64,000 nt of DNA. It comes from Thermoproteota archaeon (GTDB lineage: Archaea > Thermoproteota > Thermoprotei_A > Sulfolobales > Ignisphaeraceae). The stretch is taken from the NCBI GenBank assembly GCA_030550585.1, contig JAUQPB010000001.1, positions 558,001-622,000 on the forward strand, written 5' to 3'. Positions 6,909 to 15,920 of the stretch are shown one piece after another. Position 1 is the first letter of the stretch. The number at the start of each line of letters is the position of its first letter. Made by a program: the position numbers and the translations under genes. The notes beneath the pieces were generated by a model. That model was given only the letters and a program-made list of their open reading frames with translations. It was not told the origin of the DNA and ran no database searches.

Positions 6909-7546
6909 TGAGAACCAAGAAAGAGCTGGAGATGTTGCTGAACCAAACACCCCCTTTTCCAAGACCAAAACAATTTTTAGAGCAGTATCTGTGTGATAGC
7001 AGAATTGCTAGCGAAATGCTTTGGAATGCCTACATATCTGGTGACATAAGGGATAAGATCGTTGCTGATCTGGGTTGCGGCACCGGGATGCTTGCGTACG
7101 GAGCTCTAATTCTCGGCTCTAAAGAAGTGATATGCATAGATATTGACTGTGAGGCCATTCTAACTGCAAAAAACTTTTTGTCTAGCAAAAACCTTTTTAA
7201 TGCTAGTTTCATATGCGCTGATGTAAACGTGTTGAGCCTGAGGGCTGTGGATACAATAGTTATGAATCCCCCATTTGGTGTTTATAGACAAAAATCGGAT
7301 ATGCAGTTTTTGGAAAGTGCATTGAGATTAAGGCCTAGAGCCATATACACAATACATAAATACTCTCAAAAGCTATTTAATATTATAAAAAGTAAGTTGG
7401 ATATGCGTGAAGATGATTTTAAGATGTTGCCACTGCTTTTAGATAACATGATTATTCACGCATCATATGGTCACCATAGGAAACGCGTACATAGGTTCCG
7501 CATAATTGTGCTAAAAATTAAAAGAGAGGTGGAAGCACATGGATAA
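6902..7546 (+). CDS. METTL5-like rRNA N6-adenine methyltransferase
   Basis: SAM-dependent N6-adenine methyltransferase resembling METTL5, which modifies small-subunit rRNA in eukaryotes. The N-terminal FLEQYLCDSRIASEML matches the METTL5 LEQY motif, DLGCGTG is at 56-62, and the N6-adenine catalytic motif NPPF is at 122-125, followed by the family-typical DMQFLESAL. Archaeal METTL5 works with Trm112. It overlaps dph2 at its start and csl4 at its end, so it is translationally coupled to both. rRNA target is inferred from the family. Confidence 0.87.
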   Translation: MVVRTKKELEMLLNQTPPFPRPKQFLEQYLCDSRIASEMLWNAYISGDIRDKIVADLGCGTGMLAYGALILGSKEVICIDIDCEAILTAKNFLSSKNLFNASFICADVNVLSLRAVDTIVMNPPFGVYRQKSDMQFLESALRLRPRAIYTIHKYSQKLFNIIKSKLDMREDDFKMLPLLLDNMIIHASYGHHRKRVHRFRIIVLKIKREVEAHG

Positions 7547-8102
7547 CAAAATCGTGGTTCCAGGAGAATTCTTGTGTACAGAAGAGGAGTTCATGGCGTA
7601 TACCGGCACCTATGTAGAGGAAGGCATAATAAGAGCTGTTGTCATGGGCCGTCCAGTGTTTGACCTAATCAATAGAAGGGTATACATAAAACCTGTAAAG
7701 GATGTTAAAATACCGAAAAGCGGGGATGTTGTAATAGGTCTTGTGGAGCAGATGAGAGATGAAATTGCTATGATAAGGCTTTTAGGATATGATGTAAATA
7801 AGCCGTTTAAACATGAGTTTAGGGGCGTGCTGCACATCTCACAAGCATCGAATTCTAGGATCCAGAGTTTATATGATGTTATCAGAATTGGTGATATAAT
7901 AAGGGTGAAGATACTTAATAGCTATATACCATATGTTGTAACAGCCAAAGATGTGAAACTAGGTGTTATAGCAGCATATTGCTCTAGATGTGGAGCTCCA
8001 CTAGTGAAGGAGAAAAACAGTGATGCTCTAAGATGCAGCAGTTGTGGAAATGTTGAGACAAGAAAAATAGCACCAGATTACATGTTCACTAATAAAAGGT
8101 GA
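7539..8102 (+). CDS. csl4: Exosome RNA-binding subunit Csl4
   Basis: Cap subunit of the archaeal RNA exosome. N-terminal domain (VVPGEFLCTEEEFMAYTGTYVEEG) is the classic Csl4 start, a central S1 domain follows (PKSGDVVIGLVEQM through GVLHIS and VRVKIL), and a C-terminal zinc ribbon has C148-x2-C151 and C166-x2-C169. The 187-residue length fits. The ATG overlaps the METTL5-like gene and follows a GAGGTG Shine-Dalgarno. Rrp4 and Rrp41/42 genes are not in this window. Confidence 0.94.
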   Translation: MDNKIVVPGEFLCTEEEFMAYTGTYVEEGIIRAVVMGRPVFDLINRRVYIKPVKDVKIPKSGDVVIGLVEQMRDEIAMIRLLGYDVNKPFKHEFRGVLHISQASNSRIQSLYDVIRIGDIIRVKILNSYIPYVVTAKDVKLGVIAAYCSRCGAPLVKEKNSDALRCSSCGNVETRKIAPDYMFTNKR

Positions 8103-8106
8103 TCTT

Positions 8107-8721
8107 ATGGGTGGGGTTTTCATAGAGAGAACATTTTCATATTCTTGTCCGTCAAGAACCTTGTGCCTAGAGCTTTTAGAAAAAATAGATGAGGAGTTAT
8201 CTCTAGAAGCAGAATTGTTTGCAGAACTGAAGCACGATAAAATTGTTTTTAGAGTAGTGGGTCTAGAACCATATGTAGAATCGGCCATAAAAAAGATTAG
8301 AGAGTACATATCACAGTTTATGATGATAAAATCGATTAACCCACGAAATGGGGTATCGGCTGAGCAATTGGCGAAGCTAGTGCGTAGAACAATACCACTA
8401 GATGTTTTGGCAGAGGTTTTGCGAAGGCAGGGGGTACGAAACATTATTTTGAGAGGTTCTATAATCTATGCAGACACGGATTTAGAAACTATCGAGATGT
8501 TTGCACAGCACATAGCAAAAGCTTTTGACAGGGTTTCTAATGCTGGGTACTCATATAATTTGAAAAAATTGATTGTAGCTGCAGTTGCTCTCTACAATAT
8601 TGGAGAGTCTGAGGTGCTCGACATGTTAAGCGAAATAAATGCTATTGATGATAAGTTGGAGCTTAAGGTGCCGTGGCAAGAAGCGTTAAAATACATTGAA
8701 GAAAGACTTATTTCGACTTAA
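8107..8721 (+). CDS. Conserved archaeal protein of unknown function, probably DUF2067
   Basis: 204-residue protein next to csl4 and rpo11. From memory, crenarchaeal operons carry a DUF2067 gene in this slot, and the size agrees, but I cannot search. It has an N-terminal alpha/beta region (IERTFSYSCPSRTLCLELLEKID), a middle segment that looks like a second related unit (LVRRTIPLDVLAEVLRRQGV) and a helical C terminus. No catalytic motif, no membrane segment and no cysteine cluster. The ATG has a clear GGTGAT Shine-Dalgarno three bases upstream. A role in RNA decay or polymerase biology is only suggested by its neighbours. Confidence 0.7.
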   Translation: MGGVFIERTFSYSCPSRTLCLELLEKIDEELSLEAELFAELKHDKIVFRVVGLEPYVESAIKKIREYISQFMMIKSINPRNGVSAEQLAKLVRRTIPLDVLAEVLRRQGVRNIILRGSIIYADTDLETIEMFAQHIAKAFDRVSNAGYSYNLKKLIVAAVALYNIGESEVLDMLSEINAIDDKLELKVPWQEALKYIEERLIST

Positions 8722-8782: not shown

Positions 8783-9091
8783 TTGCCTATACGTTTAGAG
8801 CTAAAAAAGCTTACTGATAGAGAACTGAGGGTGGTTATCTATGATGAGGATAAGCACTCTTTGCCAAATCTATTATCGAAGCTTGCCTTGAAAAAACCTG
8901 GAGTGGTTTACGCAGCATACATGATTGAGCATCCAATAACGTCCTACCCAGAGGTTGTCATAGTGACTGATGGTAGCAGAAAACCGCTGGAGATATTCGA
9001 AGAGGTTGTCCAAGATGCGCAGAAACTTGTTGAAGAGTTTTCTCTAAAGCTTGAAGAGGCCTTGAAAAATGCAACTAAAGAAAGAAAGTAG
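8783..9091 (+). CDS. rpo11: DNA-directed RNA polymerase subunit Rpo11 (RpoL)
   Basis: Counterpart of Rpb11, which pairs with Rpo3 in the polymerase assembly platform. The 102-residue sequence has the family core: LRVVIYDEDKHSLPNLLSKLAL, then VVYAAYMIEHPITSYPEVVI and a long C-terminal helix. Start is TTG 8783, supported by GGTGAT four bases upstream and by there being no ATG at the conserved N terminus. The 3' end overlaps the start of the following small frameshifted gene by 23 bases. Confidence 0.94.
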   Translation: MPIRLELKKLTDRELRVVIYDEDKHSLPNLLSKLALKKPGVVYAAYMIEHPITSYPEVVIVTDGSRKPLEIFEEVVQDAQKLVEEFSLKLEEALKNATKERK

Positions 9092-9421
9092 AATTTTTGT
9101 AGTTGACGCTCTAGACGATGAGATCATAGGATTTGTTATAAGAGGTTTGATAGGCATAGAAGATGCTGTCATATTCAAGGATTGCGATGCACTAGAAAAT
9201 TTTTAAAGAGTAAGCGGGGTCTTGCAGGAGAGATAAACTATATAATTGATTTGACGGGCAAATGCCAGTACAAGTCTGTTTCAATTGGGAGAATCATAAA
9301 AATTGATGACATTGAGGATGATCAGTTACGAAATGTTGTAAACAATGTCATTGATGTTATAAAACTTATAAAGGTAAGGCTTTTAGTAATGAAAACAGTT
9401 CTTAGTTTGGGAGATGATTAA
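9069..9421 (+). CDS. Small unknown gene interrupted by a -1 frameshift at AAATTTT (possible recoding)
   Basis: An ATG at 9069, inside the end of rpo11, opens a frame that stops at TAA 9204-9206 after 45 residues (ending CDALENF). The -1 frame then continues without a stop to 9421 with equally protein-like sequence (LKSKRGLAGEINYIIDLTG and a helical C terminus). The two halves join at 9197-9203, A AAT TTT followed directly by TAA, which is a canonical X XXY YYZ slippery heptamer. Joined, they give 117 residues beginning MQLKKESRIFVVDALDDE. Read in the second frame alone, the only start is TTG 9182 and the first half is lost. I do not recognise the family. Alternatives are a true inactivating indel or a sequencing error in the A4T5 run. 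Confidence 0.55.
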
Positions 9422-9456
9422 GGTTTTAAGATCTGACAACTGATGAAAAACCCACG

Positions 9457-10920
9457 CTATGATCCGGTGTTTTTCATCTTATCAAGCATACTTAATATAA
9501 TCTCTCTTACGAGTTGGGGATCAGCTCTTCCACCAGTTTTCTTCATAACAAGGCCAATGAGATAATTTATAGCCTTTGGATTCTCTAAAGCATCTTGAAC
9601 AGCCTTTGGACTTTCTCTAAACACCTCTTCAACAACGCTCTTAAGATATTCCTTATCAGCTAGTCTTGTATAGCCAGATGATTTAACATAGTCTTCAACA
9701 TCAATGCCATCTCTTATTATCTGTGGCAACAGTTCTTTGACCATTTTAACTGAAAGTGTTCCCTCATCCCACAGCCTCAAAAGTTTGACTATCTGCAATG
9801 GGTCTAGCCTCAAGTTTTTATAGTCGATATTGAATTCATTTATCCATCTGAGAAAATCTGTTATGAGTAAATCAGCCAACTTTTTGTATTTGTCGTAGTG
9901 CTTGGCACACGTCTCAAATAAGTCGGCAAGCCATTTGTTTAGAACTAGGACGGTTGCTCTATATTCATCTAGGCTATACTGCTTCATAAATCTATCTATT
10001 CTTTCGTCTGGTAGCTCTGGAAGAGACTTTGTTATTTGTTCTATGAGTTCCTTGCTTATCCTTAGAGGGGGCAGATCAGGGTCCGGGAAATATCTATAGT
10101 CCTCTTCAAATTCTTTAGATCTTAAAGATATGGTCACCCCTTTATTAGAATCCCAATGCCTGGTCTCTCTTTCTATCTTCCCCCCTCCTGCAATAATTCT
10201 CCTCTGTCTAACAATTTCATAGGTTAAAGCCTTTTCAACATCCCTTATAGACCCAATATTCTTTATTTCAACTCTTCCAAACCCCTCAAAAGAAATATTT
10301 GCATCAACTCTGAAGGCCCCTTCAAGCCCTGGGTCTGTAACTCCTAGGTATTCTAGTATTGCTATGAGCTTCTCTAGGAATATTCTAGCCTCTTTTGGAC
10401 TTTCAATATCTGGCTCTGTAACAATTTCCAAAAGTGCTACACCAGATCTATTATAATCTATGAGACTATATGGACTTGTCTCAATACTTCCTAAATATAC
10501 GATTCTCCCCGGATCCTCCTCAATATTGATCCTTCTAATCCTTACAATTTTTGGCTTTCCATCCACTATTATCTTTACATAGCCATTTTTAGCAATTGGG
10601 GCGAAGCCCGGCCCTATATACTGAGAGATCTGATAGTTCTTAGGGAGATCTGGGTAGAAATAGTGCTTTCTCACAAACATTAATCTATCGCTTATTTCAC
10701 AGTTCAGCGCTTTGGCAACAGCAATAGCATATTCAACAGCTTTTCTGTTCACTGTAGGCAGGGTTCCAGGAAGCCCTAAGCAAACAGGGCATACATGTGT
10801 GTTCGGCTTCTTCTCTCTATAATCAGCTGAGGTCGCGCAAAACAGCTTTGTCTTCAACTTTGTTAACTGCACATGGATCTCAAGACCTATAATTGTTTTT
10901 AGAGTCTGGTTGCTGCTCAT
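9457..10920 (-). CDS. gatB: Aspartyl/glutamyl-tRNA amidotransferase subunit B
   Basis: tRNA-binding and kinase-like subunit of GatCAB, which amidates misacylated Asp-tRNA(Asn) (in archaea Glu-tRNA(Gln) is handled by GatDE). The N-terminal signature IIGLEIHVQLTKLKTKLFC, CPVCLGLPGTLP with its metal-site cysteines, YFYPDLPKNYQISQY and RYFPDPDLPPL are diagnostic; the C-terminal YqeY-like domain is complete (PKAINYLIGLVMKKTGG). 487 residues is full length. An AGGTGGGG Shine-Dalgarno precedes the ATG, 8 bases after gatA. The gene converges with the rpo11 operon. Confidence 0.96.
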   Translation of the reverse strand: MSSNQTLKTIIGLEIHVQLTKLKTKLFCATSADYREKKPNTHVCPVCLGLPGTLPTVNRKAVEYAIAVAKALNCEISDRLMFVRKHYFYPDLPKNYQISQYIGPGFAPIAKNGYVKIIVDGKPKIVRIRRINIEEDPGRIVYLGSIETSPYSLIDYNRSGVALLEIVTEPDIESPKEARIFLEKLIAILEYLGVTDPGLEGAFRVDANISFEGFGRVEIKNIGSIRDVEKALTYEIVRQRRIIAGGGKIERETRHWDSNKGVTISLRSKEFEEDYRYFPDPDLPPLRISKELIEQITKSLPELPDERIDRFMKQYSLDEYRATVLVLNKWLADLFETCAKHYDKYKKLADLLITDFLRWINEFNIDYKNLRLDPLQIVKLLRLWDEGTLSVKMVKELLPQIIRDGIDVEDYVKSSGYTRLADKEYLKSVVEEVFRESPKAVQDALENPKAINYLIGLVMKKTGGRADPQLVREIILSMLDKMKNTGS

Positions 10921-15096: not shown

Positions 15097-15920
15097 CCCT
15101 TTGTAACACTTCTCGAGGCTATTTCCTGGTAGAGGTGGTATAGCTCTGATTTTGATGGATCTGAGTTTGCTGAAATCAAATCATTGTACATTTTTCTGGC
15201 AAGCGTTTCAACGTCTATTCCAGGCTCAATACAGATTTGAGCATCTTTGTGATGGCGCATAATTGTTATGAGGGTTAATGAAAATGCTGCTAAATCATCG
15301 TTGCTGACCTTCGATTCCTCTACTTTTCTCTTCATCAAATCTATAAGCTGTGTAAAATAGGGATCTTCTCCAAGTTCTTTCACAGTCTCTAAATCTCTTA
15401 AAATTATCTTTGTAGCAACTTCAGCAAAGGCATTTAGTGGTGGAAGCATATCATCACTATTTACACATGGAATTCTGAGCCGCTTTTGATCAACAGTCGC
15501 TTGTTGTGAGATTATGGACATTAGCGAAATGACTTCTCTAAGCATATTCATCAATTTGATAATATCGGCAACCTTCTGATACTCTATTAAACACCTTCTT
15601 GAAACAGAGTGTGCATCAAAACCGAACTTGGATGGTGCCAGTCCCACAAGCCTCTCTAGAAAAGCTATCTCATTTTTTTCAGCTCTAAGCAAAAACTGTG
15701 CAAGTCTTCTTTGTAATAAGACTATATCGCTATAGCTAATGCCATGCATTCTAGCAACATTGATACTATGTAAAGCTATGGTTATTGCTAGAGCTGCATA
15801 AGGTTTGGTAAGAAAATCAATCTTGCTTATCACATCGCTGCTTAGAACTCCTTGAACTCTATAACACTTATGCAGCTTCAGTATAGCATCGACAAAGTCG
15901 TTGTATTTAGTTAAGCTCAT
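15093..15920 (-). CDS. Hypothetical helical protein, 275 residues
   Basis: Not recognised. It is predicted to be almost all alpha-helical and soluble, with repeated amphipathic segments (YSDIVLLQRRLAQFLLRAEK, VADIIKLMNMLREVISLMS) and no obvious catalytic motif. It overlaps the start of the glycerophosphodiesterase gene by four bases, so the two are co-translated. Four Cys are scattered without a metal-binding pattern. Coding is supported by the overlap and by normal codon use. Confidence 0.65.
   Translation of the reverse strand: MSLTKYNDFVDAILKLHKCYRVQGVLSSDVISKIDFLTKPYAALAITIALHSINVARMHGISYSDIVLLQRRLAQFLLRAEKNEIAFLERLVGLAPSKFGFDAHSVSRRCLIEYQKVADIIKLMNMLREVISLMSIISQQATVDQKRLRIPCVNSDDMLPPLNAFAEVATKIILRDLETVKELGEDPYFTQLIDLMKRKVEESKVSNDDLAAFSLTLITIMRHHKDAQICIEPGIDVETLARKMYNDLISANSDPSKSELYHLYQEIASRSVTKG

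Follow-up and report, generated by a model that had tools for sequence, protein, structure and literature searches.

A gene that overlaps the 3′ end of rpo11 in Ignisphaera is very probably expressed by programmed −1 ribosomal frameshifting, as judged from sequence comparison. It was found in the window, the whole stretch of 64,000 nucleotides analyzed here, which belongs to a genome of 1.76 Mb in 7 contigs from the genus Ignisphaera. Such a shift had been proposed in the earlier note on this DNA, and the proposal is backed by a frame break and a slippery heptamer which are kept across a clade of six species. The locus comprises the following features:

7539..8102, + strand: upstream gene, Csl4-like exosome protein (ECR1_N above cut-off, weaker S1 and zinc-ribbon matches)
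8107..8721, + strand: upstream gene, DUF2067 protein (PF09840, E 5e-20)
8783..9091, + strand: rpo11, RNA polymerase subunit L (PF13656, E 1.6e-15), with a 23-base overlap with ORF1
9069..9206, + strand: ORF1 in the 0 frame, ATG start, 45 amino acids, TAA at 9204-9206; first part of an uncharacterised archaeal protein
9197..9203, + strand: slippery heptamer A AAT TTT, in frame in the X XXY YYZ register
9197-9204, + strand: AAATTTTT, the same in all six split species
9203..9421, + strand: ORF2 in the −1 frame, 72 codons past the shift and a stop codon, with a GLAGEINYI motif and the second invariant cysteine

The start of ORF1 lies inside the 3′ end of rpo11. At the junction the codons read CTA GAA AAT TTT TAA, with the stop codon TAA directly after the heptamer. 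The −1 frame runs from TTA at 9203-9205 onward to the stop codon at 9419-9421, and the trans-frame protein has a length of 45 + 72 = 117 amino acids. The earlier note had described the heptamer A AAT TTT at 9197-9203 with a stop codon next to it, two abutting coding frames with a joint product of 117 residues, and an overlap of the gene with rpo11. All of this was borne out by reading the codons, by the lengths of the two frames, and by the coordinates (ORF1 from 9069, rpo11 to 9091).

Sixty genomes, the window's own among them, were searched with the joined reading, and E <= 1 was taken as a match. Matches were obtained in 18 genomes, three of them weak (E 0.07 to 0.25), and these include all 11 Ignisphaera genomes, in each of which the gene was also found at E <= 0.001 in a genus-wide search. 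Six Ignisphaera genomes carry the gene split and five carry it intact in one frame. The junction reads GAA AAT TTT TAA in the window's genome (G000) and in G005, ATA AAT TTT TAA in G004, GTA AAT TTT TGA in G010, ATA AAT TTT TGA in G002 and AAA AAT TTT TGC in G006. All six split species have the heptamer at the same codon, in an unchanged register, and five of them have a stop codon directly after it. In G006, which has no adjacent stop and a 0 frame that is 10 codons longer, A AAT TTT is overlapped by a second heptamer that is also in frame, A AAA AAT, and this may make up for the missing adjacent stop. ORF1 aligns without gaps across the six split species, and in these the protein continues downstream in the −1 frame.

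The intact genes of G009, G008, G007, G003, and G001 each form one open frame without the heptamer, and at the place of the shift the five species read TTT CTA, TTT CTT, TTT CTC, TTC CTG, and GTT TTG. The earlier note had counted intact relatives lacking a slippery site against a frameshift; such relatives do exist in these five Ignisphaera species, but the six-species clade keeps both the break and the heptamer.

An order-wide profile search gave a family match in 95 of 214 genomes, and among these 95 two-piece genes occur only in the six members of the genus. Outside the genus, one stop codon lies inside the match in five rows (G031, G094, G072, G157, and G108); the one of the five that was read, in G031, is the gene's own end stop. 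According to the coordinates, the gene overlaps or adjoins rpo11 in all 11 Ignisphaera genomes as well as in G011, G014, and G012 of the same family. In G015, also of this family (L041), the gene and the guide-RNA-like block described below occur together, although the stretch has no match to the ORFs that surround the gene in the window.

A tree was built from 12 neighbouring genes, or from 10 for G008, G007, and G011, whose stretches lack two of them; G015, G012, and G031 are not part of it. All six split species group in one clade with a bootstrap value of 100, (((G000,G005),G006),((G010,G004),G002)), whereas the branching order of the intact species is weakly supported (bootstrap 43 and 54). 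Since the split species are a single clade, the frame change arose, most simply, once in their ancestor. Divergence within the clade amounts to approximately 1.5 amino-acid substitutions per site (sum of branch lengths). The ten genes before the split gene have full-length-like ORFs in all 11 genomes, which makes the break special to this gene; for the two genes after it this holds in 9 of 11.

Selection was analyzed on both sides of the junction. In an alignment of 15 proteins (nine intact and six joined, with G012 left out), eight columns are invariant, namely K4, E6, R8, R25, G26, and C39 before the shift and E55 and C66 after it. In all 15 pairs of split species, dN is smaller than dS in both halves. 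For ORF1, dS is at least 1.7 or undefined in 13 of the 15 pairs, being saturated or nearly so, and dN ranges from 0.11 to 0.39 outside the close pair. Between G000 and G005, dS is 0.20 and dN 0.03 in ORF1, and dS is 0.33 and dN 0.09 in the 72 codons of ORF2; the two wrong frames, with stop codons dropped, show no such excess (0.13/0.17 and 0.14/0.10). The first 16 codons past the shift also have dN below dS in 15 of 15 pairs, with few sites and with dS below 0.7 in three of the pairs.

At the junction itself, AAATTTTT is identical in the six species despite the synonymous turnover of ORF1, although it is not the longest invariant run, as runs of 11, 9, and 8 bases are found in the downstream RNA-like block and the rpo11 end. 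The codon before AAT encodes E, E, K, V, I, and I, always with A as third base, and AAT and TTT are themselves codon-invariant. Among the 16 residue-invariant columns of ORF1, five are codon-invariant, two of these being AAT and TTT; an invariant third base occurs in two of its 28 variable columns, one of which is the X of the heptamer. The neighbouring genes have 1502 residue-invariant columns, of which 189 keep one codon throughout (Asn 8/51, Phe 25/78), and 1589 variable ones, of which 59 always end in A. The combination of a variable codon whose third base is fixed and two codon-invariant columns directly after it was observed there in 3 of 319 comparable triples. Counting G000 and G005 once and thus considering five lineages, the chance expected from codon usage is 0.023 for A at X, 0.13 for AAT, and 0.22 for TTT. 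These sequence-derived figures lend support to the heptamer, none of them being overwhelming singly, and the break common to the whole clade is the stronger argument.

In the proposed frameshift, the ribosome would read the 0 frame up to AAT TTT, with the stop codon next. The Asn-tRNA on AAT and the Phe-tRNA on TTT would then slip one base back, onto AAA TTT; alternatively, the Phe-tRNA alone might slip while the stop codon is in the A site. The next codon after the slip would be TTA or TTG (Leu), and translation would go on to a product of approximately 117 amino acids. The shifted reading gives a Phe-Leu pair, as present at the same place in six of nine aligned intact proteins. It is most likely the full-length protein that is functional; the 45-amino-acid product of termination probably arises as a by-product or serves to hold the level low. 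A +2 shift was considered as well, but −1 is preferred, since a +2 shift would lose the nearly invariant leucine that the family has at column 46. Loss of the wyosine modification of tRNA-Phe, considered as a cause of slippage, was rejected as a difference between the split and the intact species, as TYW3 (PF02676) and Wyosine_form (PF08608) are present in all 11 genomes of the genus. Genes with a programmed −1 shift usually, though not necessarily, have a stimulatory element (a stem-loop, a pseudoknot, an SD-like sequence, or rare codons). At the present site, none of 18 simple folds (six species, three lengths) is clearly stabler than its shuffles (z −1.86 to +2.33), and no upstream SD-like element was noticed by eye.

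How rare such sites are was determined by a scan of the whole 64-kb window on either strand. A site was counted if its X XXY YYZ heptamer had 40 or more open codons upstream in the 0 frame, a stop in that frame no more than 3 codons on, and 50 or more open codons downstream in the −1 frame. Two sites were obtained, A AAT TTT at 9197 and AAAGGGA at 15102 on the − strand. The latter is followed by TGA and lies between open frames of 275 and 243 codons, which are possibly two adjoining genes. The same scan of 16 regions gave six further sites (in G004, G002, G007, and G031, and two in G008); G006 falls outside the scan, as its 0-frame stop follows 10 codons further on. The sister species G008 and G007 have an AAAGGGG in common, located at the boundary of two full-length genes. 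In the neighbouring genes of the clade, A AAT TTT occurs in frame four times (18,922 positions), compared to 7.2 ± 2.2 in 50 synonymous shuffles. Given these in-frame copies, the heptamer by itself may not be strongly shift-prone, and the adjacent stop codon may therefore matter.

For the intact protein of G009, a structure was predicted with a pLDDT of 89.8 and a pTM of 0.82. The model consists of strands 8-15, 18-25, and 29-36, a helix 39-48, a strand 56-61, and a long helix 85-113. The shift falls in helix 39-48, the first helix of the fold, and the short product, which the earlier note had supposed beside a long one, would end inside this helix. The 45-amino-acid form is without strand 56-61 and the long helix; modelled alone it reaches a pLDDT of 80.2 and a pTM of 0.50, which says little on its stability. 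The best VIA-align hit of the model is 2qh9 with a Z of 6.8, a score that lies below the guide value of 8 and is shared by retroviral integrase and UvrC rows, and Foldseek gave no match for the model at E <= 0.001. The model suggests an RNase H-like arrangement, at a score under the guide level. Sequence searches gave nothing usable: the best E values were 0.18 (joined protein) and 0.024 (nine intact members) in Pfam, 0.029 in NCBIfam, and 0.55 among PDB sequences. From its position next to rpo11, the protein may take part in gene expression.

The same protein would also result from transcriptional slippage, in which the RNA polymerase would give a share of the transcripts a T run of another length, so that these read in one frame and the ribosomes do not shift. 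rU:dA hybrids are weak, and this weakness as well as the invariance of T5 in the six split species would fit such a process. However, it seems improbable, since the run is short, never exceeding five T in the six species, and since slippage on the T run leaves the kept AAA, including the third base of a variable codon, unexplained. A ribosomal slip explains why the AAA before the T run is kept. For the RNA polymerase of E. coli to slip, a run of at least 7 T is needed (PMC6260861), although the T7 polymerase slips on four. No open-access paper combining archaeal RNA polymerase with transcriptional slippage was found.

Expression as two separate proteins would require that ORF1 ends at its stop codon, that ORF2 is translated by termination-reinitiation, and that the halves assemble. 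Possible starts are present in some of the species: the −1 frame has a TTG at the junction in G010, G002, and G006, which overlaps the TGA in G010 and G002, and G000 has one five codons upstream of the AAA codon. In G005 and G004, however, this frame has its first ATG, GTG, or TTG after the conserved motif, at a distance of 18 and 44 codons from the AAA codon, respectively, and earlier than that only the rarer starts ATA and ATT occur. Reinitiation can therefore not explain the clade. The junction also cuts the first helix of the predicted fold, and this mode of expression is considered highly improbable.

A decaying pseudogene would account for the broken frame and is compatible with the patchy occurrence of the family in the order, but the likelihood of such a loss is very slight, because one break is common to six species over a long tree and both frames are otherwise open in all six, with dN below dS on either side. 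An error of sequencing or assembly has hardly any probability at all: although A4T5 is an indel-prone kind of sequence and most of the genomes are drafts, the same break is found in six separate genomes with differing flanking bases, and the neighbouring genes that were followed are unbroken. The earlier note had kept both error and real loss as alternatives, and with six species of one clade keeping break and heptamer they have become very unlikely. Programmed −1 frameshifting is accordingly retained as the preferred reading of the locus.

A conserved C/D-box-like guide RNA was identified at approximately 9413-9463 on the + strand, where it overlaps the stop codon of the −1 ORF. Its order is GATGAT, CTGA, TGATGA, then the guide AAACCCACGC and a degenerate last box. 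Rfam gave no more than sub-threshold C/D matches, at 9410-9464 (sR17 with 17.6 bits against 36, sR1 with 15.5 against 45). In a pattern search of 16 regions the element was detected in 11, the guide with similar flanks in two more, and none in G008, G007, and G031. As it is also present in the intact G009 and G003, the RNA is not tied to the frameshift. The complement of the guide, GCGTGGGTTY, has six matches in the window's genome. Four of them are GCGTGGGTTC inside tRNA-Leu genes at positions 59-68 (L076-L079, 1501-1510; anticodons TAA, CAG, TAG, and GAG), and of the other two, one is the locus of the RNA and one lies where there is no tRNA. Based on this sequence match, the RNA may guide methylation in the T arm of tRNA-Leu.

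Long-term retention of a frame break by selection has reportedly been described by Wernegreen and colleagues for ancient frameshifts in homopolymers of an insect endosymbiont, which are said to be attributed to transcriptional slippage in long runs; the Ignisphaera gene, in contrast, has only T5. The dnaX site of bacteria has an SD-like element before it and a stem-loop after it, and both products of the gene are used. These two elements have no counterpart seen at the Ignisphaera site. A cellular −1 programmed frameshift with a long and a short product, as proposed for the gene described here, is stated for dnaX in a 2021 review (PMC8211752).

For Archaea, this review gives one reported case of −1 programmed frameshifting, fucA1, calls its use by other archaeal genes not known, and also mentions archaeal viruses and predicted magnesium chelatase genes (PMC8211752). 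Among open-access papers, none was found with a title or abstract start on the present gene; subscription journals were largely outside the search. It is conceivable, though rather doubtful, that this is, apart from the predicted magnesium chelatase genes, the first clade-wide, selectively kept −1 ribosomal shift in a chromosomal gene of an archaeon, one that would require no RNA structure but a slippery heptamer only, with the stop codon adjoining in most members, and through which the amount of an rpo11-adjacent protein would depend on the translation state (termination speed or Phe-tRNA). Within one genus, nature has provided six recoded orthologues and five unrecoded ones, by which the needs of the archaeal ribosome for shifting become testable and a regulated shift can be tested against a merely tolerated one.

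The magnesium chelatase cluster of Methanocaldococcus, Methanococcus, and bacteria is similar in that a −1 transition is conserved across genera and includes archaeal genes; it differs in its poly-A sites and in being an unrelated gene, and three of its cassettes were tested in E. coli (PMC3711429). The closest likeness is to the α-L-fucosidase gene fucA1 of Saccharolobus solfataricus, likewise an archaeal chromosomal gene with an A/T-rich X XXY YYZ site and a −1 shift, and with some intact homologues that lack the site, as described in the review (PMC8211752). Its heptamer, A AAA AAT, is the same as the second one of G006. Tandem rare codons, a putative stem-loop, and an ORF overlap of 40 bases are given there as features of fucA1 (PMC8211752), whereas at the Ignisphaera gene no stem-loop was found and the stop codon follows the heptamer directly in five of six species. 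The fucA1 shift was shown experimentally and the Ignisphaera case is proposed from the comparison of genomes; in the same account the interruption of fucA1 is confined to S. solfataricus P2 and 98/2 (PMC8211752), whereas the proposed Ignisphaera shift is kept in six species.
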